From contig KB906767.1 of assembly GCA_000381625.1 (NCBI GenBank), positions 3,739,304-3,803,303 of the forward strand: a stretch of 64,000 nt of DNA. The letters are read 5' to 3'. This stretch comes from Bryobacterales bacterium KBS 96 (GTDB taxonomy: Bacteria > Acidobacteriota > Terriglobia > Bryobacterales > Bryobacteraceae). Made by a program: the position numbers and the translations under genes. Below, one piece after another: positions 6,015 to 42,697 of the stretch. Below the pieces are notes generated by a model that ran no database searches, had not been told where the DNA came from, and saw only the letters and a list, made by a program, of their open reading frames with translations. The stretch's first letter is position 1. The number at the start of each line of letters is the position of its first letter.

Positions 6015-6071
6015 TTCAGTCGCGATCGCGCCACGGAGAACAGAAGAGCCAACAGCACGCGGGAATCCAGG

Positions 6072-21832: not shown

Positions 21833-21884
21833 GCGTTGCGGGATAGCTGCCGAGGGTCGTGACTCGTCTGCTACTCTAAAGCTG

Positions 21885-22056
21885 CTGACGGTACGCGAAA
21901 GCGTTGAAAAAGGGAACCTAGTGCAATTCCAGGACTGCCCCGCAGCGGTAAGCAGGAACGAACGCCCATTAAGGCACTGTCTTTCAAAGAGACGGGAAGC
22001 CGGGCACTAGTAAAGCGCACAAGCGCCTTGCCTGCAAGTCCGAAGACCTGCCGCAG
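21885..22056 (+). promoter_or_regulatory. Cobalamin (adenosylcobalamin) riboswitch
   Basis: Leader of the btuB-like gene. It has the ordered conserved blocks of the cobalamin aptamer: AAAAAGGGAA (21907-21916), GACTGCCCCGCAGCGGTAA (21933-21951), GACGGGAAGCC around 21993-22003, and the B12 box AGTCCGAAGACCTGCC (22037-22052). The order, spacing and downstream vitamin-B12-receptor-like gene make this assignment strong. High cobalamin should lower expression of the receptor. Confidence 0.95.
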
Positions 22057-22057
22057 C

Positions 22058-22102
22058 CCGCGTTAATACACGCGGATTTCGTGTTGCCTCGAGGGAGGGC
22101 AA
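22058..22102 (+). promoter_or_regulatory. Expression platform with Shine-Dalgarno-sequestering hairpin
   Basis: Downstream of the B12 box, CCGCG (22058-22062) can pair with CGCGG (22071-22075). Competing with it, ACACG (22068-22072) can pair with CGTGT (22080-22084). TTGCC (22084-22088) can pair with GGCAA (22098-22102), closing over the GGGAGG ribosome-binding site. No U-run is present, so control is more likely at translation initiation than at termination. The pairings are seen in sequence; the switching order is inference. Confidence 0.6.
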
Positions 22103-27565: not shown

Positions 27566-28507
27566 CTACTCCGCCGGCCGTGCCGCGTGCATACCGCGGT
27601 GAATGCTGGCGTCGGATTTTGCGACCTCACCGGTTTCCATAAACTGCTTGAGTCTTCGCAAATCCTCTGCGACTTGCTGTCCGGGTGCAAAGCCAAACAA
27701 CTTTGCGAGACTTGCGCCAACGGCGCCGCCCGGAGGGACGTATTGCATTTCCACACGGACGAGAGTGCCGCGTCCGCCCGGGGCCCTCTCAAAACGCACA
27801 GATCCGGAGTGGTGTATTTCGGAACCATCGAGCGATCGCCACGCGATGCGTGTTGGCGCTTCATCTTCCACCAGTTCGGCGTCCCACTCGACCGTCTTTC
27901 CACCCAGCGCTCTCGTCTTCCAGTGGGATCGGCCTTCGCCGGTGATTTGTACGGAGTCGAGGTACTTCATGAAACTCGGCAGATTGCTGAAATCACGCCA
28001 GAATCGATGGACTTCCTCCGGTGGACGCCCAATGACAACGGTCTTTGTAACGCTAGTGCCGCTATTCTTCGTCATCCCGCCGCCATCGCGACCGTTGCTC
28101 AACTGCTGACCGCAGCGCACGTCGAGCGCCATCACTGCAACGACCGCTGCCGTTGCCGTCGCCACCTTGGCCCGGTTGTTGTCGTCAGAGCTTAGGGCCG
28201 AGCCGAGGGACGCGAGATCCATCAGATCGCCCGCCACCCGGCCCCACATCCAGCCCGCAGGCCGAGGCTGCGACAAGATTCCGATGCCTGCCGCGAGTTC
28301 GCGGAACCCGTAGAAGCGCAACGTCGTCCGGGTTCGGCCTTTATTCTCGAGGCCGGCCAGCCTTGCAACGGCACGAGGCGCTGCAACTTCGGCGAGGCCC
28401 AGACCAATGCTGAACCATCCCAAGCCGTTTGCAAGCTGCTCTTCCTGGCTGTGTTGAGATTCGTCAGGACGCGACTCCGCATGCCGCCTGTTTGTTTGTA
28501 GTTCCAT
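27566..28507 (-). CDS. SRPBCC (polyketide cyclase-like) protein with N-terminal membrane region
   Basis: About 313 residues from ATG 28507 (MELQTNRRHAES); the longer upstream reading has no supporting features. The first half is a membrane-associated segment (NGLGWFSIGLGLAEVAAPRA, then ELAAGIGILSQPRPAGWMWG and ATATAAVVAVMALDV). The second half is an SRPBCC/START-like ligand-binding domain (KTVVIGRPPEEVHRFWRDF to EDEAPTRIAWRSLDGSEIHH). This two-part arrangement recurs in soil bacteria; the ligand is unknown. It is the nearest gene downstream of hypB, 148 bp away on the same strand, so read-through from the hydrogenase operon is possible. Confidence 0.85.
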   Translation of the reverse strand: MELQTNRRHAESRPDESQHSQEEQLANGLGWFSIGLGLAEVAAPRAVARLAGLENKGRTRTTLRFYGFRELAAGIGILSQPRPAGWMWGRVAGDLMDLASLGSALSSDDNNRAKVATATAAVVAVMALDVRCGQQLSNGRDGGGMTKNSGTSVTKTVVIGRPPEEVHRFWRDFSNLPSFMKYLDSVQITGEGRSHWKTRALGGKTVEWDAELVEDEAPTRIAWRSLDGSEIHHSGSVRFERAPGGRGTLVRVEMQYVPPGGAVGASLAKLFGFAPGQQVAEDLRRLKQFMETGEVAKSDASIHRGMHAARPAE

Positions 28508-28655
28508 ATCTTCTGCCTTGCTTGACTCGAGCGGTCCGCTCGGGAGACCCCCACGCGTCTTCGCTACGGCACTGAGACTCTGACGGAATTGCCGGTGTTT
28601 CCCACGTGAAACCAACAGTCCCGTGGGCTGGCGTCGAGATTGCTAAAAAAAGAGC

Positions 28656-29333
28656 TTATGAAGCAGGGGATCGAACCGCCGATTTTTCTTGCAAGTACGC
28701 CAGCAGTTCATCCATTCCCTGCCCCGTTTTTGCCGACAGCTCAAAAACCTGTATACCTGGACGGACGGCTTCTATATTGGCCCTGGCCGCGGCGCGATCG
28801 AACTCGACGACCTCGGCGAGATCCATCTTTGTGATAATAGCGACATCCGCGCTGTTGAAGATGGTCGGGTACTTCAACGGTTTGTCTTCCCCTTCGGTTA
28901 CGGACAAAAGCACGAGCCGGAGATCCTCGCCCAAGTCATACGAAGCCGGACAGACAAGATTGCCGACATTTTCAATCAATAAAATGTCCAGTTCTTTAAG
29001 ATCCCAACCTTCTAACGTTCGATCGACCATGGCCGCTTCGAGATGGCAGAGGGATCCGGTTGTGATCTGCTTGACGGGCGTCTGGCTGCGCGCGAGCCGT
29101 TGTGCGTCATTGTCTGTTGCGAGATCGCCGACCAACGCCGCAGGACGGCATTGCTGCCTCAACATCGTCAATGCTCTTTCCAAGAACGTCGTCTTGCCCG
29201 ATCCAGGGCTGGATACCAGGCTCACCACGAATACGCCTGCCTCCTGAAAGCGGCTTCGCAGCGCGTGAGCCACTTCGTCGTTGTGCTTCAGTACATTCTG
29301 CCGGACTTCCACGATGCGGGGGGTCGTGGTCAT
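28656..29333 (-). CDS. hypB: Hydrogenase nickel incorporation GTPase HypB
   Basis: 225-residue GTPase that, with HypA, inserts nickel into the large subunit after the Fe(CN)2CO centre is in place. It starts at ATG 29333, overlapping hypA by 4 bp. The P-loop is VSSPGSGKTTFLERAL, and metal/switch residues are in the ENVGNLVCPASYDLGE region. There is no histidine-rich N-terminal nickel-storage segment, so it is the short HypB type. It is the last gene of the 17-gene hydrogenase operon. Confidence 0.97.
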   Translation of the reverse strand: MTTTPRIVEVRQNVLKHNDEVAHALRSRFQEAGVFVVSLVSSPGSGKTTFLERALTMLRQQCRPAALVGDLATDNDAQRLARSQTPVKQITTGSLCHLEAAMVDRTLEGWDLKELDILLIENVGNLVCPASYDLGEDLRLVLLSVTEGEDKPLKYPTIFNSADVAIITKMDLAEVVEFDRAAARANIEAVRPGIQVFELSAKTGQGMDELLAYLQEKSAVRSPAS

Positions 29334-29677
29334 TCCGCCAACTCCAGCGCCCAAATTTGCAGCTCGAGGCCATGAACGACTTCGGACGCGGGCATGCCGC
29401 ATTCAACACAACAAAAGCATTGGACAGACCGAATACTGCGTTCTGCGTTGCAATTAGAGCAATATACGGAAACCGGAACGTCTTCGATTACTAACGGGCA
29501 AGCGGCGAATCTGGTTTGCTCGGACGCAAGTTCGTACGCCGAGAGCAACGCCTCTTTCACCACGCCCGAAAGAAGGCCGAGTTTCAGATGAATCGCCTCT
29601 ATGCCGACATCGCCGCGACGCTGCGCCTCTTCGTCCACCATGTCTAAAATGCTGAGGGCGATAGAAAGTTCATGCAT
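29330..29677 (-). CDS. hypA: Hydrogenase maturation nickel chaperone HypA
   Basis: 115-residue metallochaperone. ATG 29677 is chosen because it yields the invariant MHELSIA start, where His2 and Glu3 help bind nickel. The zinc site is formed by C73xxC76 (CSNC) and C90xxC93 (CVEC). It overlaps hypF upstream by 8 bp and hypB downstream by 4 bp, which implies coupled translation. It hands nickel to the large subunit with HypB. Confidence 0.97.
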   Translation of the reverse strand: MHELSIALSILDMVDEEAQRRGDVGIEAIHLKLGLLSGVVKEALLSAYELASEQTRFAACPLVIEDVPVSVYCSNCNAERSIRSVQCFCCVECGMPASEVVHGLELQIWALELAE

Positions 29678-31940
29678 GGCACTCTCCACGCAAGGCTATT
29701 GCTCCTAGCGCTGCCTGCCCGAGGCTGATCCCGCCATCGTTCGGCGGAACAGCAGAATTGGTCCAGATGCAAATGGGCTTGCCGTTTAATAGCGACTTAA
29801 CGGTTTCGAGCAATAATTCGTTTTGGAAAACGCCGCCGCTCAGAACGACGGTGTCGAGGCCGTTCGCTTCGCAAAGCGTTGTGGCCGCGCAAGAGAGGCT
29901 CTGTGCAATCGTAGTGTGGAACGCACGCGCGATTTCAGTTTTCGAGCGGTCGCGCAGGCAGTCGTCAATCACACCGTCAAGCAACGGTCTGAAGTCCAAC
30001 TCTTCACCGTTGATCGGAAACCGATAAGCGTCGCGATTCGAAGCCCGCTGAGCGATCTGCTCCAGCCACATGGCCGCCTGCCCTTCGAAAGTGATCTCCC
30101 GAGTGAAGCCAAGGAGAGCGGCAACGACGTCGAACAGCCGTCCCATGGAAGTGGTTTCGAAGCTGCGTACGTTCTTTCTGAGAAACTCGACCGACCGGCC
30201 ATACCGGTTGTCGAAATAGAATGGCGGCTCGGTGAAATCCACCGAAGTGTGTAGCTGGCATAAGAACCCTGCGGCGCACTGCACCGGATTGCGGGCGGCC
30301 GCATCGCCCCCAGGCAGACTTGCGCTTCTGAGATGCAAAACCCGCTTAAGCCCGCCGGCCAGGCTGCCGGTGAAGAACTCGCCGCCCCAGATCGTTCCGT
30401 CGTCGCCGAAACCGGTCCCATCGAAACTAACGCCGACCACGCACTTGTCCCATGCCTGCCGTTCGGCAAGCACCGAGGCAATATGCGCGCGGTGATGTTG
30501 GACGGCCAGCGCCCGCGCCGACGGAAGTTCCAGCGCATGACTCGTCGAGGCATATTGAGGGTGAGCATCGTGAACAATCAGCAGATCATCCCAATCCACT
30601 TCATACATGAAAACTAGATCTTGAATTGTGGAGCGGAATGATTCCAGCGATTCGTAATGCTCCAGGTCTCCGATGTGCTGGCTTACGAACGCCTGGTCAT
30701 CGACCACGAGAGTGATCGTGTTTTTCAGATCGGCTCCCACGGCGAGAATCGGGCGCTTCGATGGCAGAATTGTAACCGCGCCTGGCGCATAGCCACGTGA
30801 TCTGCGCAAGATCACCGGTCCGAACGGTCCGGCGCGTGCCACGGAATCGTCCACGCGGCGCGCGATTGGCCGTTCGCCAATCAGAAACGCATCCGCGATG
30901 CCGGCTAGCCGCTCTCGCGCATCGTCGTCTTTGTAGGCGATCGGCTCACTCGACCGGTTGGCGCTGGTCGCAACCAGAATGCCAGGCGCCCCGGCTGCGA
31001 AGAGTAGGTAGTGCAGAGGCGCGTACGGCAGCATCACGCCAAATTCGGCATTTTGTGGCGCCACGCCGGGAAGTGCTACTTTCGCCGGCGCGAGCACGAT
31101 GGGCCGGGCAGTAGACGTGAGCAGCGCTTCGGCTTCTGTCGATAGTTCGACGACGCGATGCGCAGTAGCGAGATCTTTCACCATCAACGCGAACGGCTTT
31201 TCCTTGCGATACTTCCGTTCTCGCAGGGCACGAACCGCTTCCATATTCTGCGCGTCACATGTTAAGTGATATCCTCCGATGCCTTTCACGGCGACGATTC
31301 GCCCTTCGGCGAGTAATCGAATGGTGGCGTTTATGCTGGCTGCATCACGGTTGACGGCCTCACCGTCAAATTCCAAAAAATAACCCGGTCCACATGCTGG
31401 ACACGCGGCCGGTTGAGCGTGAAAGCGCCGATCGATGGGATTGCGATACTGAGTGGCACAGAGAGCGTCCAGCGCCCAGTCCTTCATGGTCGTATTCGAG
31501 CGGTCGTAGGGAAGTCGCTCAACGATCGAATAGCGCGGACCACAATTCGTGCAATTGATGTACGGGTAAAGATATCGTGAATCGGCCGGATTGAAAAGTT
31601 CGCGCAGGCACTCTTCGCAAACGGGCAGATCTGGTGAGATGCGAACAGACGGATGCCCGTTGCGGCGGCTTTCGCGAATCGTAAACTCACGCAGTCCCGA
31701 AACTTCGGACGGCTGAATGTCGATATCCGCAATCCGGGCGGCGGCGGGCGGCTGCAACGTGAGTTCGCGGAGAAAGGCATCCAAATCCGGTTCATCGCCT
31801 TCAATGTGGATGTCGACTCCGCCGCTTTCGTTCAGCACCCATCCAGCGAGCGAATTCGCATGCGCCAGGCGAAATACCAAGGGCCGGAAGCCCACGCCTT
31901 GCACGATGCCGCGTACGTGGATGGATCGAGCTTCTGTCAT
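29670..31940 (-). CDS. hypF: Carbamoyltransferase HypF
   Basis: 756-residue enzyme that makes the CN ligand precursor from carbamoyl phosphate and transfers it to the C-terminal cysteine of HypE. Domains in order: acylphosphatase (residues 1-90, GIVQGVGFRPLVFRLA), two zinc-finger motifs (CEECLRELFNP..CTNCGP and CPACGPGYF), a YrdC-like domain (GGYHLTCDAQNMEAVRALR, KPFALMVKDL) and a Kae1-like domain (AVQHHRAHIASVLAE, VVLSGGVFQNELLLETV). The length is normal. It sits between the glutaredoxin-like gene (4-bp overlap) and hypA. Confidence 0.98.
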   Translation of the reverse strand: MTEARSIHVRGIVQGVGFRPLVFRLAHANSLAGWVLNESGGVDIHIEGDEPDLDAFLRELTLQPPAAARIADIDIQPSEVSGLREFTIRESRRNGHPSVRISPDLPVCEECLRELFNPADSRYLYPYINCTNCGPRYSIVERLPYDRSNTTMKDWALDALCATQYRNPIDRRFHAQPAACPACGPGYFLEFDGEAVNRDAASINATIRLLAEGRIVAVKGIGGYHLTCDAQNMEAVRALRERKYRKEKPFALMVKDLATAHRVVELSTEAEALLTSTARPIVLAPAKVALPGVAPQNAEFGVMLPYAPLHYLLFAAGAPGILVATSANRSSEPIAYKDDDARERLAGIADAFLIGERPIARRVDDSVARAGPFGPVILRRSRGYAPGAVTILPSKRPILAVGADLKNTITLVVDDQAFVSQHIGDLEHYESLESFRSTIQDLVFMYEVDWDDLLIVHDAHPQYASTSHALELPSARALAVQHHRAHIASVLAERQAWDKCVVGVSFDGTGFGDDGTIWGGEFFTGSLAGGLKRVLHLRSASLPGGDAAARNPVQCAAGFLCQLHTSVDFTEPPFYFDNRYGRSVEFLRKNVRSFETTSMGRLFDVVAALLGFTREITFEGQAAMWLEQIAQRASNRDAYRFPINGEELDFRPLLDGVIDDCLRDRSKTEIARAFHTTIAQSLSCAATTLCEANGLDTVVLSGGVFQNELLLETVKSLLNGKPICIWTNSAVPPNDGGISLGQAALGAIALRGECHA

Positions 31941-32182
31941 TCACTCACGCTCCCGCCGACCACACAACCGCGCCCCTGCCAGCCAATCTGCACGGCCTTG
32001 CCGTCCTCCACCAGAACAGGCACGGTGCGCTGTCCACCACTTGCCTCACGCATACGCTTCAAAGCCTCAGCGTCGACCTCAACGTCGTACTCCTCGAAAT
32101 CGCGCCCGTTCCATTCGAGCCATTCGCGCATGTCGCGGGTGTAGGGACAGCTTTTAGTTCCGTAAAGCTCAGTTTTCGCCAT
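31937..32182 (-). CDS. Glutaredoxin/NrdH-like small thiol protein in hydrogenase operon
   Basis: 81-residue single-domain thioredoxin-fold protein. It starts MAKTELYGTKSCPYT, with the redox-type CPYT at residues 12-15, and contains the cis-proline segment RTVPVLVEDG and a GWQGRGC glycine-rich end. The second cysteine of a CxxC pair is a threonine, so it is a monothiol-type protein. It overlaps hypF by 4 bp and the SIS gene by 14 bp. A role in maturation or in redox protection of the hydrogenase is inference from placement. Confidence 0.85.
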   Translation of the reverse strand: MAKTELYGTKSCPYTRDMREWLEWNGRDFEEYDVEVDAEALKRMREASGGQRTVPVLVEDGKAVQIGWQGRGCVVGGSVSE

Positions 32183-33356
32183 CGCTATCGACCTCCAAAA
32201 GCTCGCGGATCGAATGGTAGATGGAGGCCTGCACTTCCTGGATGCGCGGAATGTAATCGGAGCGAACGATCAGCGCGTGGTCGGCCAAGCCTCGCCGCAG
32301 GATTTCGCCGCCATCATAACCGAGCAACGCCACCGTCAACAGTTTTCGTTTTCGCGCCTCCTCCAGAGCGATGATGATGTTGCGCGAACCGCCGCTGGTT
32401 GAAATCCCGATTGCAATGTCGTTCGGGCGCGCCTGCGCAATCAACTGGCGCAAAAAAATGACCTCGGTCCCCACGTCGTTCGCGAGCGCAGTGATATTGG
32501 CCGGTTCCGCGGAGAGAGAAATGGCGGGAATGCGCGCGTAACCGTGCGGCGGCAGCACGCAGTCGATAGCCCAGTCGTTGGCGTCGGTAGCTGAGCCTCC
32601 ATTGCCGAAAAGAATGAGCTTCCCGCCTCGTGCAACGGAGTTCCGAATGGCGGCGGCGGCTGCGACGATCTTTTCCGATTCCTCGTTGGCGACTTGTGCT
32701 CGGAGGTTCGCGTCTTCCGCGACTTTCATTTGAATGGACGCGGCCACCTCTTCAATGATTCCGGCGTTCTCCTGTTTCTGCTGGCCCAGAAATGGATAGA
32801 GAAAGCCGGCCTCGCCGATGTCCTGTCCGAGTTCCCGGTGTTCGAAGAAGACATGCACCGTCTCCCAAAGCGTGTGATACAGAATTTCGATCGCCTCCTG
32901 ATGGAGGAATGGATCGGAGGTAACGGCCTCGACTGAGTACGAGCCCTGCCGCCCCGGCAAGGCGAACGTCATGCATCCCCGCTCTTGAGCCCAATCGAGC
33001 GACGCTTCCACTTCAGCATCGCCTGCCGGTGGTCCGAAGCCCATGACGATGTCCTCGGGCAGCGCGATCGATTCCAGCCATGGGCCGAACAGAGGGGACA
33101 GATCGAGCGCGGGCAGCGCTCGTTTTCCGACAATGACCGGATGAACGAATTCGACGGACACGTGCTGAGCGTCGGTGGCATAGGGCCCCCGTCCAAACGC
33201 CAGCAGTCGGCCGCCTTTGAGAAAGCGGTCCGACATCTCGCGGCAAGCGATAGCGAGACGCTGCGCCTCACGGGAGAAAAGCGCAGTCAGGAGTTCGTTG
33301 CGTTTGAGAAGCGACTCTTCGACTTGCTTTGCGAGTTGGGAGCGGCTGGCCAGCAT
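32169..33356 (-). CDS. Double SIS-domain protein (GmhA/sedoheptulose-7-phosphate isomerase-like)
   Basis: About 395 residues from ATG 33356, which falls one base after the hypE stop. It contains two SIS sugar-phosphate-binding domains. The first (residues ~10-185, GGRLLAFGRGPYATDAQHVS) is divergent. The second (residues ~200-390, GGKLILFGNGGSATDANDWA, then IAIGISTSGGSRNIIIALEE) is clearly GmhA-like. A GmhA-like gene is a known member of actinobacterial-type hydrogenase loci, but its substrate there is not known. The fused tandem form is less usual than single-domain GmhA. Lipopolysaccharide heptose synthesis is unlikely given the operon. Confidence 0.88.
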   Translation of the reverse strand: MLASRSQLAKQVEESLLKRNELLTALFSREAQRLAIACREMSDRFLKGGRLLAFGRGPYATDAQHVSVEFVHPVIVGKRALPALDLSPLFGPWLESIALPEDIVMGFGPPAGDAEVEASLDWAQERGCMTFALPGRQGSYSVEAVTSDPFLHQEAIEILYHTLWETVHVFFEHRELGQDIGEAGFLYPFLGQQKQENAGIIEEVAASIQMKVAEDANLRAQVANEESEKIVAAAAAIRNSVARGGKLILFGNGGSATDANDWAIDCVLPPHGYARIPAISLSAEPANITALANDVGTEVIFLRQLIAQARPNDIAIGISTSGGSRNIIIALEEARKRKLLTVALLGYDGGEILRRGLADHALIVRSDYIPRIQEVQASIYHSIRELLEVDSDGEN

Positions 33357-33357
33357 A

Positions 33358-34395
33358 TCAGCAAATCCGCGGCAAAGGATCGCCGACGAGCATATCGATG
33401 ACGCGCGTGCCTCCATATGATGTGGCCCCGAGGACCGCTCCAGACGGCTGTTCGCGAATTTCGCCGATCAGCGTGGCGGCGTGCCCGCCGGGAGTATTCC
33501 GGAGAGCATCCAGCGCTCTGTCCGCGTATTCCGCATCCAGGACCGCTAGAAACTGTCCTTCGTTCGCGATGTGCAAAGGATCAAGGCCCAGCAGTTCGCA
33601 TGCGCCGCGCACCGTATCCCGGACGGGCACCGCATCCTCAAATAACCACACTCCCAGGCCGCAGTCTCGCGCCAGTTCGTTCAGCGAAGTAGCCACGCCG
33701 CCACGCGTGGGATCGCGCATCCAATGAATGCCCGGGCCTGCCGCCCGCGCCATCGCTTCAATCAGCGGAAGCACGGAACGTGTATCGGAGCAGATCTCGC
33801 CTTCCAGATCCAACTCGCCACGGGCGAGCAGAACCGTGATGCCGTGATCGCCCACCGGGCCGCTAATCAAAACCTTGTCACCCGGCCGTACCGAGGCGGC
33901 CGAAATCGAGATACCAGGGATCACCCGGCCGATTCCGGTAGTCGAGATATACATTCCGTCGGCTTTGCCGTGTTCAACTACCTTCGTATCACCGCCCGAA
34001 ATGACGACTCCGGCGTCGGTTGCGGCCGTGCCCATGGCACGGACCTCAGCCTCCAAAACCTCGGTCGGCAATCCCGCTTCGAGCACATACGTTACGACCA
34101 GCGCTTCCGCTCTTGCGCCTGACACGGCAAGGTCGTTCACGGTCCCGTTCACGGCCAGTTCACCGATGGAGCCACCCGGAAATCGCAGCGGCTTCACAAC
34201 GAAGCTGTCGGTCGTAATGGCGATGCGTGTTCCGTTAATGCTGATGTGCGCCGCGTCCCCTAAAGTCTCGATGCGGTCGCCAAACAGAAGTGGTGCGAAA
34301 AGGCCTTCCACAAGCCGCCGGCTCGCCTTGCCTCCGGCTCCGTGGGCCATTTCAATCTGCGCGTCGCGAAAGCGGATCTTGGGAGCGGCGTCCAT
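33358..34395 (-). CDS. hypE: Hydrogenase expression/formation protein HypE
   Basis: 345-residue AIR-synthase-like enzyme that dehydrates the thiocarbamate on its own C-terminal cysteine to thiocyanate, the CN donor for the Fe centre. The N-terminus has QIEMAHGAGGKASRRLVEGL. The ATP-binding part has MGTAATDAGVVISGGDTKVVE and RDPTRGGVATSLNELA, and the protein ends exactly in PRIC, as the mechanism requires. It begins 11 bp after hypD and ends one base before the SIS gene. Confidence 0.98.
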   Translation of the reverse strand: MDAAPKIRFRDAQIEMAHGAGGKASRRLVEGLFAPLLFGDRIETLGDAAHISINGTRIAITTDSFVVKPLRFPGGSIGELAVNGTVNDLAVSGARAEALVVTYVLEAGLPTEVLEAEVRAMGTAATDAGVVISGGDTKVVEHGKADGMYISTTGIGRVIPGISISAASVRPGDKVLISGPVGDHGITVLLARGELDLEGEICSDTRSVLPLIEAMARAAGPGIHWMRDPTRGGVATSLNELARDCGLGVWLFEDAVPVRDTVRGACELLGLDPLHIANEGQFLAVLDAEYADRALDALRNTPGGHAATLIGEIREQPSGAVLGATSYGGTRVIDMLVGDPLPRIC

Positions 34396-34406
34396 CCTAC
34401 ATCTCG

Positions 34407-35537
34407 TCAGACTGCGGCGCCGATCCGTGTAAGAGTCTCGTGCTTACGGTGCTCGTAGTTGTAGTAAGCAGCGCATGACCCTTCGGACGAAACCATCAGA
34501 GCGCCGACCGGCCGTTCGGGAGTACACTCTTTTCCGAACAATTTACACTGCACCGGCTTCAGCACGCCTTTCAGCACTTCACCGCACTGTGCCGCTTTCG
34601 GATCGGTGACGCGCACGCCCGGAACGGCAAAGCGGTGTTCGGCATCCCAGTCCTTATAGGTATCGCGAATCCGCAAAGCGGACTGGGAGATAAAGCCCAT
34701 GCCGCGCCACTCGAAGTACGACCGCAGCTCGAAGACCTCGGCCATGGCCTTGAGCGCCGCGCGGTTGCCCTCCCACGGCACTACGCGTTTATATTGATTC
34801 TCCACTTTTGCCTCGCCTGCCTTAAGCTGCCGGAGCAGCATTACGACGGCTTGCAATACATCGACGGGCTCAAATCCCGATACGACGATCGGCTTTCCTT
34901 CATTGCGCGCCACCCACTCGTAGGGCCGGCACCCGATAACGGTTGACACATGTCCCGGACCGATGAACGCATCGATTCGCATGTCCGGCGAGTCGAGAAT
35001 TGCGCGTATCCCCGGAATAATGGTCACGTGGTTACAAAATACAGAAAAGTTAGTTACTCCTAGCGCCTTCGCGCGCATAAGCGTCAGGGCGGTGGAGGGC
35101 GCCGTGGTTTCAAAACCAATAGCGAAAAAGAGAACGTGCTTGTCCGGATTCTTCTGCGCCAGTTTTAGCGCATCGGAAGGCGAGTAGACAATTCGCACGT
35201 CCATGCCGCGCGCCTTGTGCTCGAGCGGGCTGCCCTCGCGGCCGGGTACGCGCATCATATCGCCAAATGCCGTGAAGATAACGTTCGGACCTTTCGCTAT
35301 CGACAACCCATCGTCGATGCGGCCCATCGGAAGCACGCAGACCGGACACCCCGGGCCATGCACCAAGTCGATATTCGGCGGCAGAATATCCTTCAAGCCG
35401 AAGCGATAAATGGCGTGAGTATGCCCGCCACACACTTCCATGAACCGGTACTGCCGTCCGAGATCGGCGAGGCGACGAATCTCGTCGGCGGCTTTATGAA
35501 TCACGCCGGCATCCCGGAATTCATCTACGAATTTCAT
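34407..35537 (-). CDS. hypD: Hydrogenase formation protein HypD
   Basis: 376-residue Fe-S protein that, with HypC, holds the iron while CN and CO are attached. ATG 35537 gives the standard MKFVDEFRD start; a longer reading is unlikely. Marks are FMEVCGGHTHAIYRFG, the HGPGCPVCVLP cysteine pair, IGFETTAPSTAL and the C-terminal cysteine cluster including KAAQCGEVLKG and CKLFGKECTPERP. It lies 10 bp after hypC and upstream of hypE. Confidence 0.98.
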   Translation of the reverse strand: MKFVDEFRDAGVIHKAADEIRRLADLGRQYRFMEVCGGHTHAIYRFGLKDILPPNIDLVHGPGCPVCVLPMGRIDDGLSIAKGPNVIFTAFGDMMRVPGREGSPLEHKARGMDVRIVYSPSDALKLAQKNPDKHVLFFAIGFETTAPSTALTLMRAKALGVTNFSVFCNHVTIIPGIRAILDSPDMRIDAFIGPGHVSTVIGCRPYEWVARNEGKPIVVSGFEPVDVLQAVVMLLRQLKAGEAKVENQYKRVVPWEGNRAALKAMAEVFELRSYFEWRGMGFISQSALRIRDTYKDWDAEHRFAVPGVRVTDPKAAQCGEVLKGVLKPVQCKLFGKECTPERPVGALMVSSEGSCAAYYNYEHRKHETLTRIGAAV

Positions 35538-35547
35538 GGAAAAACTC

Positions 35548-35841
35548 CTACGGGCCGGCCTTCCGATCATGATCGCTTAAGCCGTACCCCTTCACCTCTT
35601 GCATCACTGCTTCGTTTTCGCCAAGCATAGTCAGTGTTTGCAATTGATCGAGAGCCTGTTCCTCGCTGATCTTGCTCATTGCAAATCCGACATGAACAAG
35701 CACCCAGTCTCCAAGCTGCAATCTCTCATCCTGTAGCAGCCCAGTGTCTATGTGCCGCCGCACTCCCGCAACCTCCACCAGCGCGCGGCTTTCTTCACCA
35801 GGAAGCAGTTCCACAATCTTGGCCGGTATAGCCAGACACAT
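35548..35841 (-). CDS. hypC: Hydrogenase assembly chaperone HypC
   Basis: 97-residue HypC/HupF chaperone with the required N-terminus MCLAIPAKIVEL; Cys2 is the iron ligand shared with HypD. GDWVLVHVGFAMSKISEEQA is the second family hallmark. The protein is slightly longer than the usual 75-90 residues because of a polar tail (VKGYGLSDHDRKAGP). It is preceded 10 bp upstream by the 35-codon small ORF. Confidence 0.97.
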   Translation of the reverse strand: MCLAIPAKIVELLPGEESRALVEVAGVRRHIDTGLLQDERLQLGDWVLVHVGFAMSKISEEQALDQLQTLTMLGENEAVMQEVKGYGLSDHDRKAGP

Positions 35842-35851
35842 GCTGAACCCC

Positions 35852-35959
35852 TTACATCATTTCCATTTTGATGTAGCGCCTGAAATCTCCGAAATTCATC
35901 GCGACGCCCGCCACCACGGCTGCGGCAATAACGATTCCCGTGATCTTGAGTGCTTTCAT
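35852..35959 (-). CDS. 35-residue membrane microprotein in hydrogenase operon (DUF6893-like)
   Basis: A short ORF of 36 codons whose ATG begins at the base next to the stop of the maturation protease gene and which ends 10 bp before hypC. The product starts MKALKITGIVIAAAVVAGVA, one hydrophobic helix, and ends with a basic amphipathic tail (FGDFRRYIKMEMM). The pattern of a single helix followed by D-x-RRY-x-KM looks like the short DUF6893-type proteins; this match is from memory. The zero-gap position in a tightly packed operon argues that it is translated. Possible role: membrane anchoring or docking for a soluble hydrogenase without a Tat signal or anchor of its own. Confidence 0.72.
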   Translation of the reverse strand: MKALKITGIVIAAAVVAGVAMNFGDFRRYIKMEMM

Positions 35960-36487
35960 TCAGTAGCCCTCCCCGGCTTCTGCATACACAGCAATCTCTC
36001 CCGTACTTTCAAATTCCTGGACTAATGCACGGACAATTTCGACGGCTGGATCGACGGCCGCTTGCACCGCATCGCTGAGCCCCATAACGCCTTCGCTGCC
36101 GCCAAGCACAGCCGGTTGGCATCCGACCAGTAGAATTCGCTTAAACTGAGCACCCATGTTCTTTGCCAGCACGAGAACCTTGGCCGGATCCAAGCTATGC
36201 GAATTGACGCACGCATCTCCAGCGTTTTCAACCAGGCAATTCACATCGGGCTCGATCACATAGAGCATGCCCGGCATGCCGCCTCGGGCAGTCGCGTCCA
36301 CCAGAATTGTGAGATCGTGGCCATCCAGGAAAGCAAAGGCCAAGTCAATCGCGCGTATGCCGAAATCCACAACGCGCACGTTATCCGGCCAGTCGCAAGA
36401 GGCTAGTTTTTGAGCGACCACCACACCGAACGAATCATCGCCGTGAAAGATGTTGCCGATACCGCCGATGAGGACAGACTTGCTCAT
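35960..36487 (-). CDS. Hydrogenase maturation protease
   Basis: 175-residue endopeptidase of the HyaD/HoxM group that removes the C-terminal peptide of the large subunit after nickel insertion. The N-terminus LIGGIGNIFHGDDSFGVVVAQ carries the acidic nickel ligand, and LDGHDLTILVDATARGG and VNSHSLDPAKVL supply the other expected Asp and His. Its target here is probably the large subunit at 39824-41623, which has a 21-residue tail after DPCLPCGVH. It overlaps the 416-residue gene by 4 bp. Confidence 0.95.
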   Translation of the reverse strand: MSKSVLIGGIGNIFHGDDSFGVVVAQKLASCDWPDNVRVVDFGIRAIDLAFAFLDGHDLTILVDATARGGMPGMLYVIEPDVNCLVENAGDACVNSHSLDPAKVLVLAKNMGAQFKRILLVGCQPAVLGGSEGVMGLSDAVQAAVDPAVEIVRALVQEFESTGEIAVYAEAGEGY

Positions 36488-37734
36488 AAATCGATATCGC
36501 AGCCGCTGCTGTCGCTCGGAATCGGCTCGATTTCCGAGCCCGAAAAGAAAAAGCGATGGCCGGCTTGTCGCATCTCGCCCAGATCGCGCCCCGGATCGTC
36601 TTCGATCACGACTGCCACGTGGACGTTATCTTCGTAGTCCTGTTCAATGGCTTCGACGACAGCCGTTCTACCATCGAGCAGCGTATCGAATATATCGGCG
36701 CGCTTGCCGGGCCGAAGCCGGACGCGATCTCCCTTCTTCACGTCGATACCTGAAATGCGGGTGCTCGTGCTTTGTGGAGCTTCCGCCCAAGCGCTCGATG
36801 CGTTCCGGAGGTCGATTCCCAATTGGGACCGCATGCCGCGAATAGCGCCGTGTAATTGCATCAAGTGCTCTGCTGGATTCGCTTCGAGTCTGTCGAGAAT
36901 TTCCTTTGCCCGCTCGTCAGATTGCCGCATTTCCGCCTTTTCGGCGTCGGTCATGGTCAGAATGCGAAGACTGAGGATCTCATCGATTTCGGTTCCATCA
37001 AATAGATCGCCGCTGCTTTCGGGAGCGATTTGCGGGTAATCGGATAGGATGATCGGCGACCCGAGCAACATGTCATGTGCGCCTTCCTCGCCTACGAGAA
37101 CAGGCCACACGCCAACGTTTTCGCAGCCTACCGCAGCTTCGCGGAGCGGATCGGGCGGATCTGTTTGAGACACAAACTCGCCATCTCGCACCGTCAGCAC
37201 CGCGTGTGCAGAGGCGAGGGAGCGCAGCAGCGCTTCGTCGCGAGTGAACTTTTCTAGCGCGGCCGTATTGCGGACGCGCACGCTGATCCGAAAAACCGCA
37301 TCCTGTACGAGTACCGCCCGTATCTCTACTTCGCCTTCTAGGAATTCCTGCCGGTAAGCGCCGCCCCGCCCGGCCGCTGGAAAAGAAAACTCCTCCCGAT
37401 GCGGATTGGAGACGATCGCGTCAAAACTGAGATCGTGAATCGGAACGCTGCCTTCGATCGCCTCTTGCCAGCACTGCACGCCGGCGCCGCGCTCCACGAC
37501 TTGCAGGAACCGCAACGTTACGTTGAGATGCGAATGTGCGCCGCCGAGGGCCAGACATTCCATTTGAAAATACGACCGGTCAGAACCCGTCTGCCCGATC
37601 GCCCAAGCTTCCGGATACAATACGCCGAAATTCCAGCGTTGTCGATTCTTCAAAGCCGACGTCCGGTAAGGATAAAGAATATAGCCTTCGTACAAAACGG
37701 CGCGCGCGATCTTGTCCACCAGTTCTGAGTTCAT
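36484..37734 (-). CDS. Conserved hydrogenase-operon protein of unknown function, 416 residues
   Basis: Not assigned to a characterised family. There is no signal peptide or membrane helix. The N-terminal ~290 residues (DKIARAVLYEGYILYPYR, RQRWNFGVLYPEAWA) form an unknown mostly beta-rich domain. Residues ~330-400 (GDRVRLRPGKRADIFDTLLD, TAVVEAIEQDYEDNVHVAVV) look like a small SH3/KOW-like barrel. I recall proteins of this kind beside group 1h hydrogenases in Actinobacteria. It overlaps the DUF6084 gene and the protease gene by 4 bp each, so it is very likely expressed with them. A maturation or assembly scaffold role is inference. Confidence 0.8.
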   Translation of the reverse strand: MNSELVDKIARAVLYEGYILYPYRTSALKNRQRWNFGVLYPEAWAIGQTGSDRSYFQMECLALGGAHSHLNVTLRFLQVVERGAGVQCWQEAIEGSVPIHDLSFDAIVSNPHREEFSFPAAGRGGAYRQEFLEGEVEIRAVLVQDAVFRISVRVRNTAALEKFTRDEALLRSLASAHAVLTVRDGEFVSQTDPPDPLREAAVGCENVGVWPVLVGEEGAHDMLLGSPIILSDYPQIAPESSGDLFDGTEIDEILSLRILTMTDAEKAEMRQSDERAKEILDRLEANPAEHLMQLHGAIRGMRSQLGIDLRNASSAWAEAPQSTSTRISGIDVKKGDRVRLRPGKRADIFDTLLDGRTAVVEAIEQDYEDNVHVAVVIEDDPGRDLGEMRQAGHRFFFSGSEIEPIPSDSSGCDIDL

Positions 37735-38384
37735 GACACTTCCAGCGGCTGTTCCGCCAACGCCAGCAGGCGTTCAACAGTCTCATCAAAGGTCGCAATG
37801 CCTTCTTTTATCTTGAACCGGTAAAGTTCGTTGAATGCATCACGTCTCAGGCACAGCCACGTCATATTGGGATAGTGGAGATCCATCATCTCTTTCCAAA
37901 CCCGGACCGGCAAACGAAAACGAGCTTCCTTATTCCACGGGACAGGGGCTGCCTGAAACGCCGCTTGCCCCGAATCGTAAAACACGGTGCCGCTGAACAG
38001 AAACGTTAGCGGGACCTCGCCGTCCTCAAGAGCATGGAAATATTTCGCGCTCGCGACGGTGAGATCGAACGTGCAGGGTACGCTAATCGGGTAGACAATG
38101 CTGCCCGTAAAGGAGGGGACGTTCACGGTGGTATTGGCCCACAGCATGGTCCGGAGCGTCTGGGCCCAGCGCTCCGGTTCGCCGAACAGATCCCGGAGTT
38201 GCTCCTGCTCTTGTGGTTTGTAGCGGCGCCGCGGCGCTTCAATCTGAATCTGGCACCGAAGCAGAATTGCGTGGACCGGCTGTTGTTCCGCCTGATTCGT
38301 CAGGCGCAAGTGAAACGCCAGCGCCGGGGTTGCCAGATCGCGCGCGGGTTCGACGTTGACAATCTGAAAGTCGAGATCAGGCAT
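37731..38384 (-). CDS. DUF6084 family hydrogenase-associated protein
   Basis: 217-residue soluble protein of unknown function. The opening LDFQIVNVEPARDLATPALAFHLRL and the segment WAQTLRTMLWANTTVNVPSF followed by SIVYPISVPCTFDLTVA agree with what I recall as DUF6084. No catalytic motif is evident. It overlaps both neighbours (4 and 8 bp) in the hydrogenase operon. I recall the same three-gene block (DUF5947, DUF6084, the 416-residue protein) from other high-affinity hydrogenase loci, which points to a joint function. Confidence 0.8.
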   Translation of the reverse strand: MPDLDFQIVNVEPARDLATPALAFHLRLTNQAEQQPVHAILLRCQIQIEAPRRRYKPQEQEQLRDLFGEPERWAQTLRTMLWANTTVNVPSFTGSIVYPISVPCTFDLTVASAKYFHALEDGEVPLTFLFSGTVFYDSGQAAFQAAPVPWNKEARFRLPVRVWKEMMDLHYPNMTWLCLRRDAFNELYRFKIKEGIATFDETVERLLALAEQPLEVS

Positions 38385-39021
38385 ATGTTTTTATCCGCGC
38401 CGGACGAGAGCGTTGTTTCAGACCGGCAAAATAGGTTGAGATCGCTTCCCAAACCTCACTGCCGCCCGAAAATCCCGACCAGTGTTGCCGGATCAGGCCC
38501 GTCAAGCGGTAGCATTCGTCAATTGGCGCCAGGTAGTATTCGCGCTCGTGCTTGACGCGGTTAACGAGCAATGCCTCTGTATCTGCCTGCATGCTCCCTA
38601 GCACCGGATTGAGATCGACGATCTCTTCCCAGAAATCGGCATCGAGAGCCGATTCCGTTGCCCCTGCAGGACTCGGATATAGCGCTGCAACTTGGCCGGA
38701 CACGCTCGATTTATAGAAGAACACCAGCCCTATGGGAATCATGAGACTGTTCCAGAGTGCATCGTCCAGGCGAAAATCGTCGAGGTATCGAACGTCGCGA
38801 GACACGCGGCGGTATTGTGTCTGGCCGTTGCCGCTGAACAAAATGGCGCACGGGTCGCACGCACAGAGGATACGGCGGCTTTGAGGGTCGATTAAGTGTT
38901 GGTGCTCTTCGGAAAGCCGCGCGGCACAGAGTTCGCATATCTCCACAGGCGGAGGCTTCTGCACGAATTTTCGAAGCGACGCCAGACCGCGCACCGCCGC
39001 GTGTTGGGTTCTTATACTCAT
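38377..39021 (-). CDS. DUF5947 family hydrogenase-associated protein with cysteine cluster
   Basis: About 214 residues from ATG 39021, which overlaps the NifU-like stop by 4 bp; a longer upstream reading would run through that gene and is rejected. The N-terminal part has a metal-binding pattern EICELC (C29, C32) and ILCACDPC (C53, C55, C58), followed by SGNGQTQYRRVSRDVRYLDD. This matches DUF5947 as I recall it. The five cysteines could bind zinc or an Fe-S cluster. Function is unknown, but co-occurrence with group 1h hydrogenases suggests a role in maturation or electron transfer. Confidence 0.8.
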   Translation of the reverse strand: MSIRTQHAAVRGLASLRKFVQKPPPVEICELCAARLSEEHQHLIDPQSRRILCACDPCAILFSGNGQTQYRRVSRDVRYLDDFRLDDALWNSLMIPIGLVFFYKSSVSGQVAALYPSPAGATESALDADFWEEIVDLNPVLGSMQADTEALLVNRVKHEREYYLAPIDECYRLTGLIRQHWSGFSGGSEVWEAISTYFAGLKQRSRPARIKTYA

Positions 39022-39560
39022 AAGCCCGCGCTGGCCATCAGATTCGACAGAGGCACAAAATCCGGCGTAGGAGGATCCCGAAGGCCTTCGACGATCACGT
39101 TCGTGATCTCCGGCGCGGCCTGATAAATTACAGCTTCGATCGACGCCTTTACAGGCGCACCCGACCATACGCGATCGCTATCGAAACGCAATCGTACAAC
39201 ACCCTCCTCAATAGCCAGCAGCGAAACGCCCGTCATGCGAGAACCGAACATTCGCTGCAATTTTTCCACAGCACAGTTCACTCGCGTCTCGAGATCGTCG
39301 GGGTGGAGACCGTGCAGAAGCAGGACACTGCTTACGAGATCGTCAGCGGCTATGCGATCGATAATTGCCTCTCCGGCAGGCCCGGATGCAGCTGCAATCT
39401 CCATCATCCGTTCCAACCCGGCGGCATGGAAATTCAACACCGCTTGTAGCAAATCCACCGTTATGCCACGCAGTTTTGGATCTTCGACAGACTCCGCCCG
39501 GCGAACCAGTTCTTCGATTCTGTCGATCCATTGCTGCGAGCCCACTTCCTCATGCGCCAT
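39018..39560 (-). CDS. NifU-like protein lacking the CxxC motif
   Basis: 180-residue protein. The N-terminal half is helical (QQWIDRIEELVRRAESVEDP, then VDLLQAVLNFHAAGLERMME). The C-terminal ~75 residues follow the NifU/Nfu domain plan (LQRMFGSRMTGVSLLAIEEG, VRLRF, a final PEITNVIVEGL). At the place where Nfu proteins have GxCxxC, this sequence reads DRVWSGAPVKASIEAV, so the cluster-binding cysteines are absent. It therefore cannot bind a [4Fe-4S] cluster in the Nfu way and may act as a scaffold or partner protein. It lies directly after the 63-residue ORF. Confidence 0.82.
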   Translation of the reverse strand: MAHEEVGSQQWIDRIEELVRRAESVEDPKLRGITVDLLQAVLNFHAAGLERMMEIAAASGPAGEAIIDRIAADDLVSSVLLLHGLHPDDLETRVNCAVEKLQRMFGSRMTGVSLLAIEEGVVRLRFDSDRVWSGAPVKASIEAVIYQAAPEITNVIVEGLRDPPTPDFVPLSNLMASAGL

Positions 39561-39587
39561 TTTGCCTCCGGTTGAGATGGGCCGCGA

Positions 39588-39779
39588 TCAGGCCGGCGGC
39601 ATGTTCGGCATCCGCGGATCGATAGGTCCCTTGCTTTTCGGATCGATACTGGTCGAATCACGGGACGTGCGGCCGCCACGTTCGCGCCCAGGCTCCGGGC
39701 CTTTTCGTTTCAGCATCTCCTCACCCCGGTTCGTGCCGGGTGTGTGTGAGGATATTCCCGACTTCTTCGTGTGCGCCAA
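39588..39779 (-). CDS. 63-residue basic microprotein downstream of hydrogenase large subunit
   Basis: A TTG at 39779 preceded five bases upstream by AGGAGG (39785-39790), the best ribosome-binding site in the neighbourhood, gives a 63-residue product. It begins MAHTKKSGISSHTPGTNRGE and ends PRMPNMPPA. An internal ATG at residue 22 would give 42 residues. The protein is very basic, rich in Pro, Gly, Lys and Arg, and probably disordered. It fills an otherwise unexplained gap between the large-subunit gene and the NifU-like gene. Possible roles are chaperone or assembly tag; no family was recognised. The evidence is position, Shine-Dalgarno site and an open frame only. Confidence 0.55.
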   Translation of the reverse strand: MAHTKKSGISSHTPGTNRGEEMLKRKGPEPGRERGGRTSRDSTSIDPKSKGPIDPRMPNMPPA

Positions 39780-39823
39780 AGTAACCTCCTCAACTTCCGA
39801 AAGCCCAAGGAACGACTCCACAA

Positions 39824-41623
39824 CTAGGAGTGAGCGCCCAGCATCGACGAGTGCTCCTGCCGGAGCACCTTTCCATTCCCCAGGTACATGTGAACTCCGC
39901 AAGGCAGGCAGGGATCGAAGCTTCGCACCGCTCGCATGATATCGATGCCCTTGAAGTTTTCCGGGCCGTTTTCTTCGAACAAAGGCGTGTTCTGAATCGC
40001 GTCCTCGTAGGGCCCCGGCGTGCCGTATATATCACGTGGGCTCGCATTCCATGGAGTTGGCGGATACGGATGGTAGTTCGCGATCTTCCGATCGCGTATG
40101 ACCACGTGATGCGACAGCACTCCGCGCACGGCTTCGTGGAAGCCGCAGCCGATGGCCTCGTCCGGAACCTTGAAGTCCGACCATGTTTGAGTTCGTCCGC
40201 CGCGAACCGCGTTCAGAGCCTTCTCCACAAAATAGAGCGCTGCCGCGGCTGCATAGGCTTGAAAATAGGTGCGCGCCCGGTCGCGTTCAATCGCGTTGCT
40301 CCATTGCGGGATGCTCCATTCGAATTGCGTTTCAGGCAGCAGCGCGGTCTTCGGCAGATTGATCTTGACGCTCTGACCCGTGGCTTGGATATAGCCGATG
40401 TCGACCAAATTGTTTAGCGCCGTCGCCCATAGCCGCGCAATTGGGCCGCCGCCGGTGTCTAGGGCAAGGTGATCACCTGTATTCTTATCGAACCAGCGTG
40501 GCGACATCACCCACGTATACTTTCCCTTGAAATCGCGCTTCTGCGGTTTCGGTGTCGTGGTCTGATTCCACGGATGTCGCTTATCGATGGCGTTGCCGAG
40601 CGGGTCGGTTTTGACGAATGTCTCGCCGGCATTCTCCCAATCGTTGTAGTAGGAACTGCCGAGCAGGATTCGCATGCCCAGATTGATATCAACCAGATCG
40701 TTGGTCACGACCTTGCCGTCAACAATCACACTGGGCGTTACGTACATAGCTCGGCCCCAGTTCGACATGTTTTCGTACTTATAGTCGCAGGCAGCGGGAT
40801 CGTTGAAAGAACCCCAGCAGCCGAGCAGAATCCGGCGCTGTCCTACCCGCTCATATCCCGGCAGCGCTTCATAGAAGAAGTTGAACAGATCATCGTGCAA
40901 CGGGACTGCTTTCTTTACGTACTCGATGTACTTCATCAGGCGGACCAGGTAATCGGTGAAAACCTGAATCGTCGGGACCGTGCCTACGCCGCCCGGGTAG
41001 AGAGTCGACGGATGAACGTGCCGGCCTTCCATGAGGCAAAACATCTCGCGAGTGAGACGGCTCATCTGAAGCGCTTCGCGGTAGTACTCCCCGGTGAACG
41101 GATTCAGCGACCGCATGATTGCCGCGATGGTCTTATACCCATGTTTATCCGCGTTCGGAGCGGGCGTATTTTCCGCCTTGTTCAGAACGCTCGGATTTGT
41201 TTGCTTCACCATCTGCTCGCAGAAATCCACTCCGACCAGGTTGTCCTGATAGAGGTTGTGGTCGAACATGTATTCGGCGGCTTCGCCCAAATTGATGATC
41301 CACTCGCCCAGTTCCGGCGTCTTACACCCGAACGCCATGTTCTGCGCGTAGACAGCGCAGGTCGCGTGATTATCTCCGCAGATACCGCAGATGCGGCTCG
41401 TAATAAAGGGCGCGTCGCGCGGATCTTTGCCCTGCATGAAGATGCTGTATCCGCGAAAAATGGATGATGTGCTGTAGCACTCGGCCACCTCTTGGTTATC
41501 GAAATCGATCTTGGTAAATATGCCGAGGCTGCCGACGATCCGAGTGATCGGATCCCAATTCATTTCGACCAGGTTTCTGCTCTTTCGCTCCGTGCCGGTC
41601 AAAGGTTCCGTCGCTGTCGCCAT
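39824..41623 (-). CDS. hhyL: [NiFe]-hydrogenase large subunit, group 1h (high-affinity type)
   Basis: 599-residue catalytic subunit that binds the NiFe(CN)2CO site and oxidises H2. The N-terminal ligand motif RICGICGDNH is at residues 77-86 (C79, C82). The C-terminal motif is DPCLPCGVH (C572, C575, H578), followed by a 21-residue tail that the maturation protease should remove after His578. The opening VEMNWDPITRIVGSLGIFT and the HPWNQTTTPKPQKRDF style of insertion are those of the actinobacterial-type group 1h enzymes. It follows the small-subunit gene by 15 bp. The enzyme class scavenges trace H2 and is oxygen-tolerant. Confidence 0.95.
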   Translation of the reverse strand: MATATEPLTGTERKSRNLVEMNWDPITRIVGSLGIFTKIDFDNQEVAECYSTSSIFRGYSIFMQGKDPRDAPFITSRICGICGDNHATCAVYAQNMAFGCKTPELGEWIINLGEAAEYMFDHNLYQDNLVGVDFCEQMVKQTNPSVLNKAENTPAPNADKHGYKTIAAIMRSLNPFTGEYYREALQMSRLTREMFCLMEGRHVHPSTLYPGGVGTVPTIQVFTDYLVRLMKYIEYVKKAVPLHDDLFNFFYEALPGYERVGQRRILLGCWGSFNDPAACDYKYENMSNWGRAMYVTPSVIVDGKVVTNDLVDINLGMRILLGSSYYNDWENAGETFVKTDPLGNAIDKRHPWNQTTTPKPQKRDFKGKYTWVMSPRWFDKNTGDHLALDTGGGPIARLWATALNNLVDIGYIQATGQSVKINLPKTALLPETQFEWSIPQWSNAIERDRARTYFQAYAAAAALYFVEKALNAVRGGRTQTWSDFKVPDEAIGCGFHEAVRGVLSHHVVIRDRKIANYHPYPPTPWNASPRDIYGTPGPYEDAIQNTPLFEENGPENFKGIDIMRAVRSFDPCLPCGVHMYLGNGKVLRQEHSSMLGAHS

Positions 41624-41638
41624 TTCATCCCTCTTTCG

Positions 41639-42697
41639 TCAGTAGCTTGTCGGCTGATAGCCGGTGGTTAATTTCGGCCTGCGGTGGCGCCACCGCGGTT
41701 CTTTGTTCCCGCTCGCGTTGGTGATGGATCGGAGACTCCGGATGAGCGATCCGTAGCTGACGACGATCACGGAGGAGAGACTCGCTCCAGGAGGCTGGTC
41801 CATGAAAGGCATGAATTTGTCGGGGAAACCGGGCATCGTACAAGCAATGCAGATGCCTCCCACATTGGGACACCCGCCGATTCCGCGCATCCAACCGCGC
41901 TTCGTCACGTTACAGTTCGCTACTGGACCCCAGCAGCCGATCTTCACCAGGCATTTGGGCGATCCATATTCGTGCGCGAAATCTCCCTGTTCGTAATACC
42001 CGGCGCGATCGCACCCTTCGTGAACCGTTTTGCCGAACAACCAAGTGGGCCGCAACTGTTCATCCAGCGGAATCATCGGAGACAGGCCAGCCGCTTGATA
42101 GAGCAAGTAGAGTACGGTCTCCATCATGTTGTCGGGCTGCACGGGACAGCCGGGAACGTTCACCACCGGCAGACCCGCGGCCGATCGCCACGACTTGCCG
42201 AGATAATTGGCCAGCCCCATACAGCCGGTGGGATTTCCGGCCATCGCATGAATGCCGCCATAAGTAGCGCACGTGCCGGCCGCAATCACACCCCAAGCCT
42301 TCGGCGCCAAGCGGTCAATCCATTCGCAGGTGGTGATCGGTTGCCCGGTATTGGGATTGGTGCCCAACGCGGCCCAGTAACCTTCGCGCTTAATTCCTTC
42401 GTTGGGAATCGAGCCTTCCACCACCAAAACAAACGGATCGAGCTGGCCCTTTTCAGCTTGATAGAAAAATTCCATAAACTCATCGCCGACTTCGGTCGCC
42501 AGCACCGGATTGTGGAGGTGGACTTTGGGCAGTCCGGGGATCGCGCCCATCACGACGTCCTCAATGCTGGGCTGTTCCGCGTTTGTGACCGAGATCGTGT
42601 CTCCATCACAACTCAGACCTGCTGTGATCCAGAGGATGTGAACTTCGGAAACGGCGGACTTGGGTGCGGAGGGCGGCTGGAGCGACTGCGTAGCCAT
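41639..42697 (-). CDS. hhyS: [NiFe]-hydrogenase small subunit, group 1h
   Basis: 352-residue Fe-S subunit. ATG 42697 is preferred because AAGGAGG lies about six bases upstream. There is no Tat signal and no C-terminal anchor, so the enzyme is cytoplasmic. The proximal-cluster motif reads GLSCDGDT (C30, D33). In group 1h enzymes an aspartate replaces the usual cysteine ligand, giving a 3Cys-1Asp cluster linked to oxygen insensitivity. Other ligands are in GTCATYGG, VPGCPVQPDNM and the C-terminal block with KIGCWGPVANC and GGCPNVGGICIACTMPGFPD. It is the first gene of the operon, so the promoter lies in 42698-42986. Confidence 0.95.
   Translation of the reverse strand: MATQSLQPPSAPKSAVSEVHILWITAGLSCDGDTISVTNAEQPSIEDVVMGAIPGLPKVHLHNPVLATEVGDEFMEFFYQAEKGQLDPFVLVVEGSIPNEGIKREGYWAALGTNPNTGQPITTCEWIDRLAPKAWGVIAAGTCATYGGIHAMAGNPTGCMGLANYLGKSWRSAAGLPVVNVPGCPVQPDNMMETVLYLLYQAAGLSPMIPLDEQLRPTWLFGKTVHEGCDRAGYYEQGDFAHEYGSPKCLVKIGCWGPVANCNVTKRGWMRGIGGCPNVGGICIACTMPGFPDKFMPFMDQPPGASLSSVIVVSYGSLIRSLRSITNASGNKEPRWRHRRPKLTTGYQPTSY

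Follow-up and report, generated by a model that had tools for sequence, protein, structure and literature searches.

DUF6893, a 35-residue membrane microprotein accompanying group 1h [NiFe]-hydrogenases across phyla, as a candidate for their membrane anchor

Which component couples a group 1h [NiFe]-hydrogenase (Hhy) to the membrane if neither of its structural subunits offers an anchor? Soil bacteria with high-affinity hydrogenases, those of group 1h among them, represent a main sink of atmospheric H2, and the group 1h enzyme enables such bacteria to live on the trace H2 in air. Other enzymes of this group were reported to feature neither a Tat signal nor a C-terminal helix in the small subunit and yet to be membrane-associated. 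This membrane association has been tied to the high affinity of the group 1h enzyme (PMC7174314). The question is raised again by a hydrogenase locus of Bryobacterales bacterium KBS 96, which was analyzed within a stretch of 64,000 nucleotides (contig KB906767.1), hereafter the window.

ORF and start-codon analysis of the window revealed an uninterrupted minus-strand run of 17 co-directional genes from 42697 to 28656, in the order (5' to 3') hhyS, hhyL, m1, NifU-like, DUF5947, DUF6084, X, protease, m2 (DUF6893), hypC, hypD, hypE, double-SIS, Uxx-star glutaredoxin, hypF, hypA and hypB. With the best starts, the intergenic gaps in this order amount to +15, +44, +27, -4, -8, -4, -4, 0, +10, +10, +11, +1, -14, -4, -8 and -4, which agrees with the preliminary description of one-strand genes spaced by -14 to about +45 bp. 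Gene identities were obtained by Pfam, NCBIfam and PDB searches, and these recovered both structural subunits, all six hyp genes and the protease named there. The latter is a hydrogenase maturation protease of the HyaD/HupD type (175 aa, 35960..36487, minus strand as for all 17 genes; TIGR00072, above cut-off). The hyp genes comprise hypC (35548..35841; TIGR00074), hypD (34407..35537; TIGR00075; likely start 35537 in an ORF open to 35570), hypE (33358..34395; TIGR02124), hypF (29670..31940; TIGR00143), hypA (29330..29677), whose 74.5 bits to TIGR00100 lie below the cut-off of 88.1, and hypB (28656..29333; TIGR00073, above cut-off; likely start 29333 in an ORF open to 29402). Two structural, six hyp and one protease gene leave eight accessory genes instead of the seven counted initially, namely those for a 63-aa microprotein (m1), the NifU-like protein, DUF5947, DUF6084, the 416-aa protein X, the DUF6893 microprotein, the double-SIS protein and the Uxx-star glutaredoxin; the two microproteins expected among them are both present. 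As dozens of other loci have this gene content too, the 17-gene set is not a product of chance. The operon is flanked by a helicase-like plus-strand gene (42987-47009) and an unassigned minus-strand ORF (27566-28615), and a consensus promoter scan yielded nothing beyond chance.

The enzyme itself belongs almost certainly to group 1h, as had been proposed, judging from structure-database scores, motifs and tree position. HhyL (599 aa, 39824..41623) matches Cupriavidus necator AH (5aa5, chain C) with 1114 bits compared to about 163 bits for the next solved hydrogenase, and HhyS (352 aa, 41639..42697; Pfam Oxidored_q6 and NiFe_hyd_SSU_C) reaches 603 bits to chain A of the same structure and 147 to the next. 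The translation of 39824-41623 contains the L1 motif TSRICGICGDNH and the L2 motif SFDPCLPCGVH, which are distinctive for group 1h (PMC5364354). A tree calculated from 111 large subunits with a quick method places the HhyL of the window inside the clade that includes the hhyL of C. necator, Streptomyces and Mycobacterium, at a large distance from other NiFe hydrogenases of its own class. Likewise, the description of the genome as acidobacterium-like is borne out by its closest named relatives, which are Bryobacteraceae MAGs with 93-95% identity. The host genome (6.69 Mb, two contigs) harbors a single NiFe large subunit. Neither HhyS nor HhyL shows a Tat signal or membrane helix; HhyS contains no RR within its first 30 residues, thus no twin-arginine signal, and its top 19-residue hydropathy of 1.23 does not indicate a C-terminal transmembrane helix. 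A second hhyS, an orphan without hhyL and 71% identical, is located 2.7 Mb from the operon (C1:6502150-6503148, plus strand; about 8150-9197 in locus L129) and is followed by a gene for a PAS-type sensor histidine kinase. In other acidobacteria, an extra hhyS is found directly upstream of the operon.

Gene order was compared in 113 loci, which were drawn from the host's class, from two plasmids and from named genomes belonging to several phyla. Most complete loci, including those of C. necator and Streptomyces, have the block hhyS-hhyL-NifU-like-DUF5947-DUF6084-X-protease in common, and the order of the hyp genes is variable. The accessory genes occur in other group 1h loci as well. Because Eichorst 2018 (PMC5900883) already drew such an arrangement in acidobacteria, including gmhA, glutaredoxin and hypotheticals, the operon type is not new; it is an ordinary, well-assembled group 1h set of a kind already known. 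The acidobacterial operons described (Edaphobacter aggregans, KBS 83, KBS 96 and Pyrinomonas; PMC5900883) have in common the structural genes, an HhyE-like protein, HupD, conserved hypotheticals, hypABCDEF as well as gmhA-like and glutaredoxin genes. The window differs from them in that hhyS is not duplicated upstream but present as the distant second copy, in the 63-aa microprotein between hhyL and the NifU-like gene, and in the loss of the NifU CxxC. The actinobacterial-type hydrogenase (AH, PDB 5AA5) encoded on pHG1 of C. necator H16 has a large subunit 78.8% identical by tblastn, shares the block from the small subunit to the protease and is accompanied by a DUF6893 ORF sited between the protease and hypF genes; however, the hyp order is different, the SIS protein has a single domain, and glutaredoxin and m1 genes were not found there. 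Among the 113 loci, the glutaredoxin gene was seen in Acidobacteriota only. The locus had further been called self-contained, which is a little strong, since m1, SIS and glutaredoxin genes vary between lineages and the second hhyS is unlinked.

Some loci depart further from this pattern. In the locus of Streptomyces cattleyicolor (pSCAT) the order is rearranged to protease-A-B-X-S-L-NifU-DUF5947, and no DUF6893 was found nearby. Three loci of Planctomycetota and Chloroflexota with deep-branching hhyL (L081, L095, L102) lack the genes for NifU-like protein, DUF5947, DUF6084 and DUF6893 within the DNA examined. They are among the first to branch off in the large-subunit tree and possibly represent a separate subtype; the equally deep L098 carries an ORF with the DUF6893 motif. 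Moreover, Methylacidiphilum fumariolicum was reported to be without the conserved hypotheticals.

With regard to the electron path, Hhy activity in Mycobacterium smegmatis was shown to require the NifU-domain protein HhyE, and this protein was proposed as electron acceptor (Islam 2019, PMC6883350). The M. smegmatis system and the window are both of group 1h, with the NifU-like partner gene adjoining hhyL. Nevertheless, the mycobacterial HhyE is a long form with the NifU CxxC and two further CxxC motifs, whereas the NifU-like protein of the window (180 aa, 39018..39560), a homologue of HhyE by position and sequence only, is a short, Cys-free form which lacks the C-terminal two-CxxC domain and carries DSDRVWSGAPVK in place of the NifU CxxC motif (WSGA within DSDRVWSGAP). 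In an alignment of 103 loci, in which the window's own sequence is present three times, the NifU CxxC is kept in 35, including all 15 long forms, which possess the additional CxxC domain at the C-terminus. The remaining 68 loci, all short forms and including the window and C. necator, have lost both this motif and the C-terminal domain. These losses, together with the hydropathy of the window's NifU-like protein, which indicates no membrane helix, make it improbable that HhyE both accepts the electrons and provides the membrane link throughout group 1h, with DUF6893 as an incidental companion, even though its necessity in M. smegmatis speaks for such a function.

A different pattern was observed for the DUF5947 protein (214 aa, 38377..39021; Pfam PF19372, 232 bits), which features a candidate metal site of the form CxxC-HxH-CxCxxC. 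Its five Cys are invariant in 97 of 97 loci and are accompanied by two invariant His (complete set C29, C32, H40, H42, C53, C55 and C58). As the CxxC of the NifU-like protein is lost in most loci while the Cys and His of DUF5947 are invariant, DUF5947 appears the likelier conserved electron relay of the two, an assignment that we regard as having an even chance of being correct. The site could also bind zinc in a structural role rather than a redox cluster. The AlphaFold model of DUF5947 is of high confidence (pLDDT 91), and its fold gave no match in the PDB below E 0.07 by Foldseek.

The remaining candidate for a membrane link is encoded by the ninth gene, m2 (35852..35959), which directly follows the protease gene. 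Its product of 35 aa (MKALKITGIVIAAAVVAGVAMNFGDFRRYIKMEMM) scores 25.4 bits as a protein against Pfam PF21833 (DUF6893; cut-off 24.6) and 23.5 bits in the whole-genome search, so that the match is borderline. The predicted protein consists of one hydrophobic helix and the tail DFRRYIKMEMM, corresponding to a C-terminal DxxRYxKxxxM that ends on Met. All 30 diverse members of an alignment (A1) have the final Met and the Tyr, and the Asp and Arg are nearly invariant. It is furthermore the sole one of the 17 operon proteins with a transmembrane-like segment: the 19-residue mean hydropathy reaches 2.18, followed by HypD with 1.81 and at most 1.44 for all others.

The position of this gene after that of the protease is retained across six phyla. 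An ORF with the motif adjoins the protease gene in 56 of the 66 loci that are complete in this region, and more were recognized by hand or with model A1; several of the ten others feature DUF6893 in another position or form. No mention of DUF6893 was found in the literature searched, and the gene tables for C. necator pHG1 and Streptomyces fungicidicus, which were taken from PLSDB and are known to be incomplete, do not list the ORF. The protein is small enough to drop out of such tables, and consequently knock-outs and heterologous expression planned from them would omit it.

Co-occurrence with group 1h hhyL was counted on matches above the Pfam cut-off. In the host's class, DUF6893 was detected in 20 of 25 hhyL-positive genomes (23 if three sub-threshold matches with the full motif are included) versus 0 of 274 hhyL-negative genomes. 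The corresponding values are 68/78 versus 0/43 for the Streptomycetaceae and 2/2 versus 0/198 for the Burkholderiaceae. As the genomes are related, Fisher values for these comparisons overstate independence and are not literal probabilities. Of the 68 copies in the Streptomycetaceae, 67 share the strand of hhyL and are encoded 3.7-4.8 kb downstream of it. The ten hhyL-positive genomes of this family in which DUF6893 was not detectable belong mostly to a divergent subclade, typified by S. cattleyicolor (L128), with about 70% identity to the enzyme of the window, and the protein was likewise not detectable in some planctomycete, Chloroflexota and verrucomicrobial loci. Weak matches in five hhyL-negative genomes (G026, G118, G163, G205 and G208) were confined to internal parts of the profile, fell mostly inside long ORFs and were dismissed as chance. 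Taken together, DUF6893 is very probably a component dedicated to the Hhy system. The operon might alternatively be nothing but a standard group 1h set with dispensable hitchhikers as small accessory genes, the enzyme meeting the quinone pool by diffusion or via respiratory complexes. This would suit the known operon type (PMC5900883) and the structure of C. necator AH, which was solved as purified S/L (5aa5). Still, without a function it is difficult to account for a 35-residue protein whose C-terminal motif and gene position are maintained in six phyla and which occurs exclusively together with hhyL, and we consider the hitchhiker explanation very improbable.

As to the kind of function, the simplest candidate for an anchor is a dedicated protein that combines a single helix with a charged, conserved tail containing a Tyr. 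DUF6893 is thus put forward as a strong candidate for a membrane anchor or coupling subunit of the group 1h hydrogenase, although on the basis of sequence patterns the odds of this role are about balanced. The positive-inside rule predicts a cytoplasmic location for the basic tail, on the same side of the membrane as the enzyme. Another possibility is a maturation or assembly factor which recruits the protease or the Hyp complex to the membrane, or shields HhyL during metal insertion, without being part of the working enzyme. Such a role stays conceivable by reason of the gene position after the protease in nearly every locus, often just before the hyp genes. However, Hyp maturation elsewhere works without a membrane microprotein, DUF6893 was not found in genomes of the host's class which possess only other NiFe hydrogenases plus their proteases, and in Verrucomicrobia its gene lies between those of the protease and HhyS, at a distance from the majority of hyp genes. 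A pure maturation function is therefore rated as rather unlikely.

In the preferred anchor model, the enzyme would face the cytoplasm, supplied with the full set of six Hyp proteins and a protease of its own; HypA-F and the protease would build and process HhyL. H2 would be split at the [NiFe] site, and the electrons would travel from HhyS through its clusters on to DUF5947; a putative scaffold would be formed by the NifU-like protein, DUF6084 (217 aa, 37731..38384; Pfam PF19562, 289 bits) and X. DUF6893 would reside in the membrane and dock the HhyS/HhyL-DUF5947 complex to its cytoplasmic face by the basic RYxKxxxM tail, so that electrons could reach the quinone pool. The last step, which would account for membrane association without a cytochrome b, is proposed tentatively and falls slightly short of an even chance; the overall explanation, i.e., a cytoplasm-facing Hhy with a DUF5947 relay and DUF6893 docking, seems fairly probable to us. 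An ORF of the DUF6893 type (4948-5166) was also observed directly upstream of the extra hhyS (5303-6361) in E. aggregans (L069), which hints that the partner of DUF6893 may be the small subunit.

A comparable task, the linking of a cytoplasm-facing, cytochrome-b-less hydrogenase to membrane quinone, was proposed for HucM of the group 2a hydrogenase Huc of M. smegmatis (PMC10017518). In contrast to DUF6893 with its approx. 35 aa, one transmembrane helix and tie to group 1h, HucM comprises about 188 aa with a coiled-coil stalk, and no relationship is suggested.

Tiny single-helix subunits encoded in operons of respiratory enzymes and easily missed by annotation are exemplified by the CydX-type microproteins. 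DUF6893 resembles them in size, single helix and operon setting; no homology is claimed, and its partner is a hydrogenase. The novelty of the locus appears to lie in an overlooked, phylum-spanning membrane microprotein, which makes the membrane coupling of group 1h directly testable. DUF6893 and DUF5947 are testable components that accompany the enzyme across phyla; the iron-sulfur motif of HhyE, an assumed component, does not.

The other microprotein, m1 (63 aa, 39588..39779), is basic, probably disordered and starts with TTG at 39779 behind a strong Shine-Dalgarno sequence. Relatives in group 1h loci of Acidobacteria, Verrucomicrobia, Planctomycetes and Chloroflexi share its tail ...ARDxTxIN...PIDPxMPxxPPA (in m1, ARDxTxIN...PIDPRMPNMPPA), and differences to the nearest relatives are mostly found at third codon positions. 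The conserved tail and this bias mark m1 as a real gene, and the latter excludes noise as an explanation of this ORF, which lies between hhyL and the NifU-like gene.

Protein X (416 aa, 36484..37734) belongs to no Pfam family and is predicted to combine a beta-rich N-terminal part, helices and a C-terminal SH3-like domain resembling the cytochrome b6f subunit PetP (TMt 0.68-0.78, Foldseek on the predicted structure). DrmAB gave the best Foldseek E-values for X but poor TM-scores and was rejected, leaving only the C-terminal domain believable. Sequence-profile searches of the PDB with DUF5947, X and DUF6893 returned nothing credible. The Uxx-star family glutaredoxin-like protein (81 aa, 31937..32182; NF041212, above cut-off) is present in its Cys form. 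The double SIS-domain (GmhA-like) protein (about 395 aa, 32169..33356; TIGR00441 / PF13580) is a fusion, as half-by-half comparison matched its first half best to the first and its second half to the second of two neighboring SIS genes in Chloroflexi and mycobacteria. Additionally, a cobalamin riboswitch (101 bits) is located on the plus strand of the window at 21872-22069.
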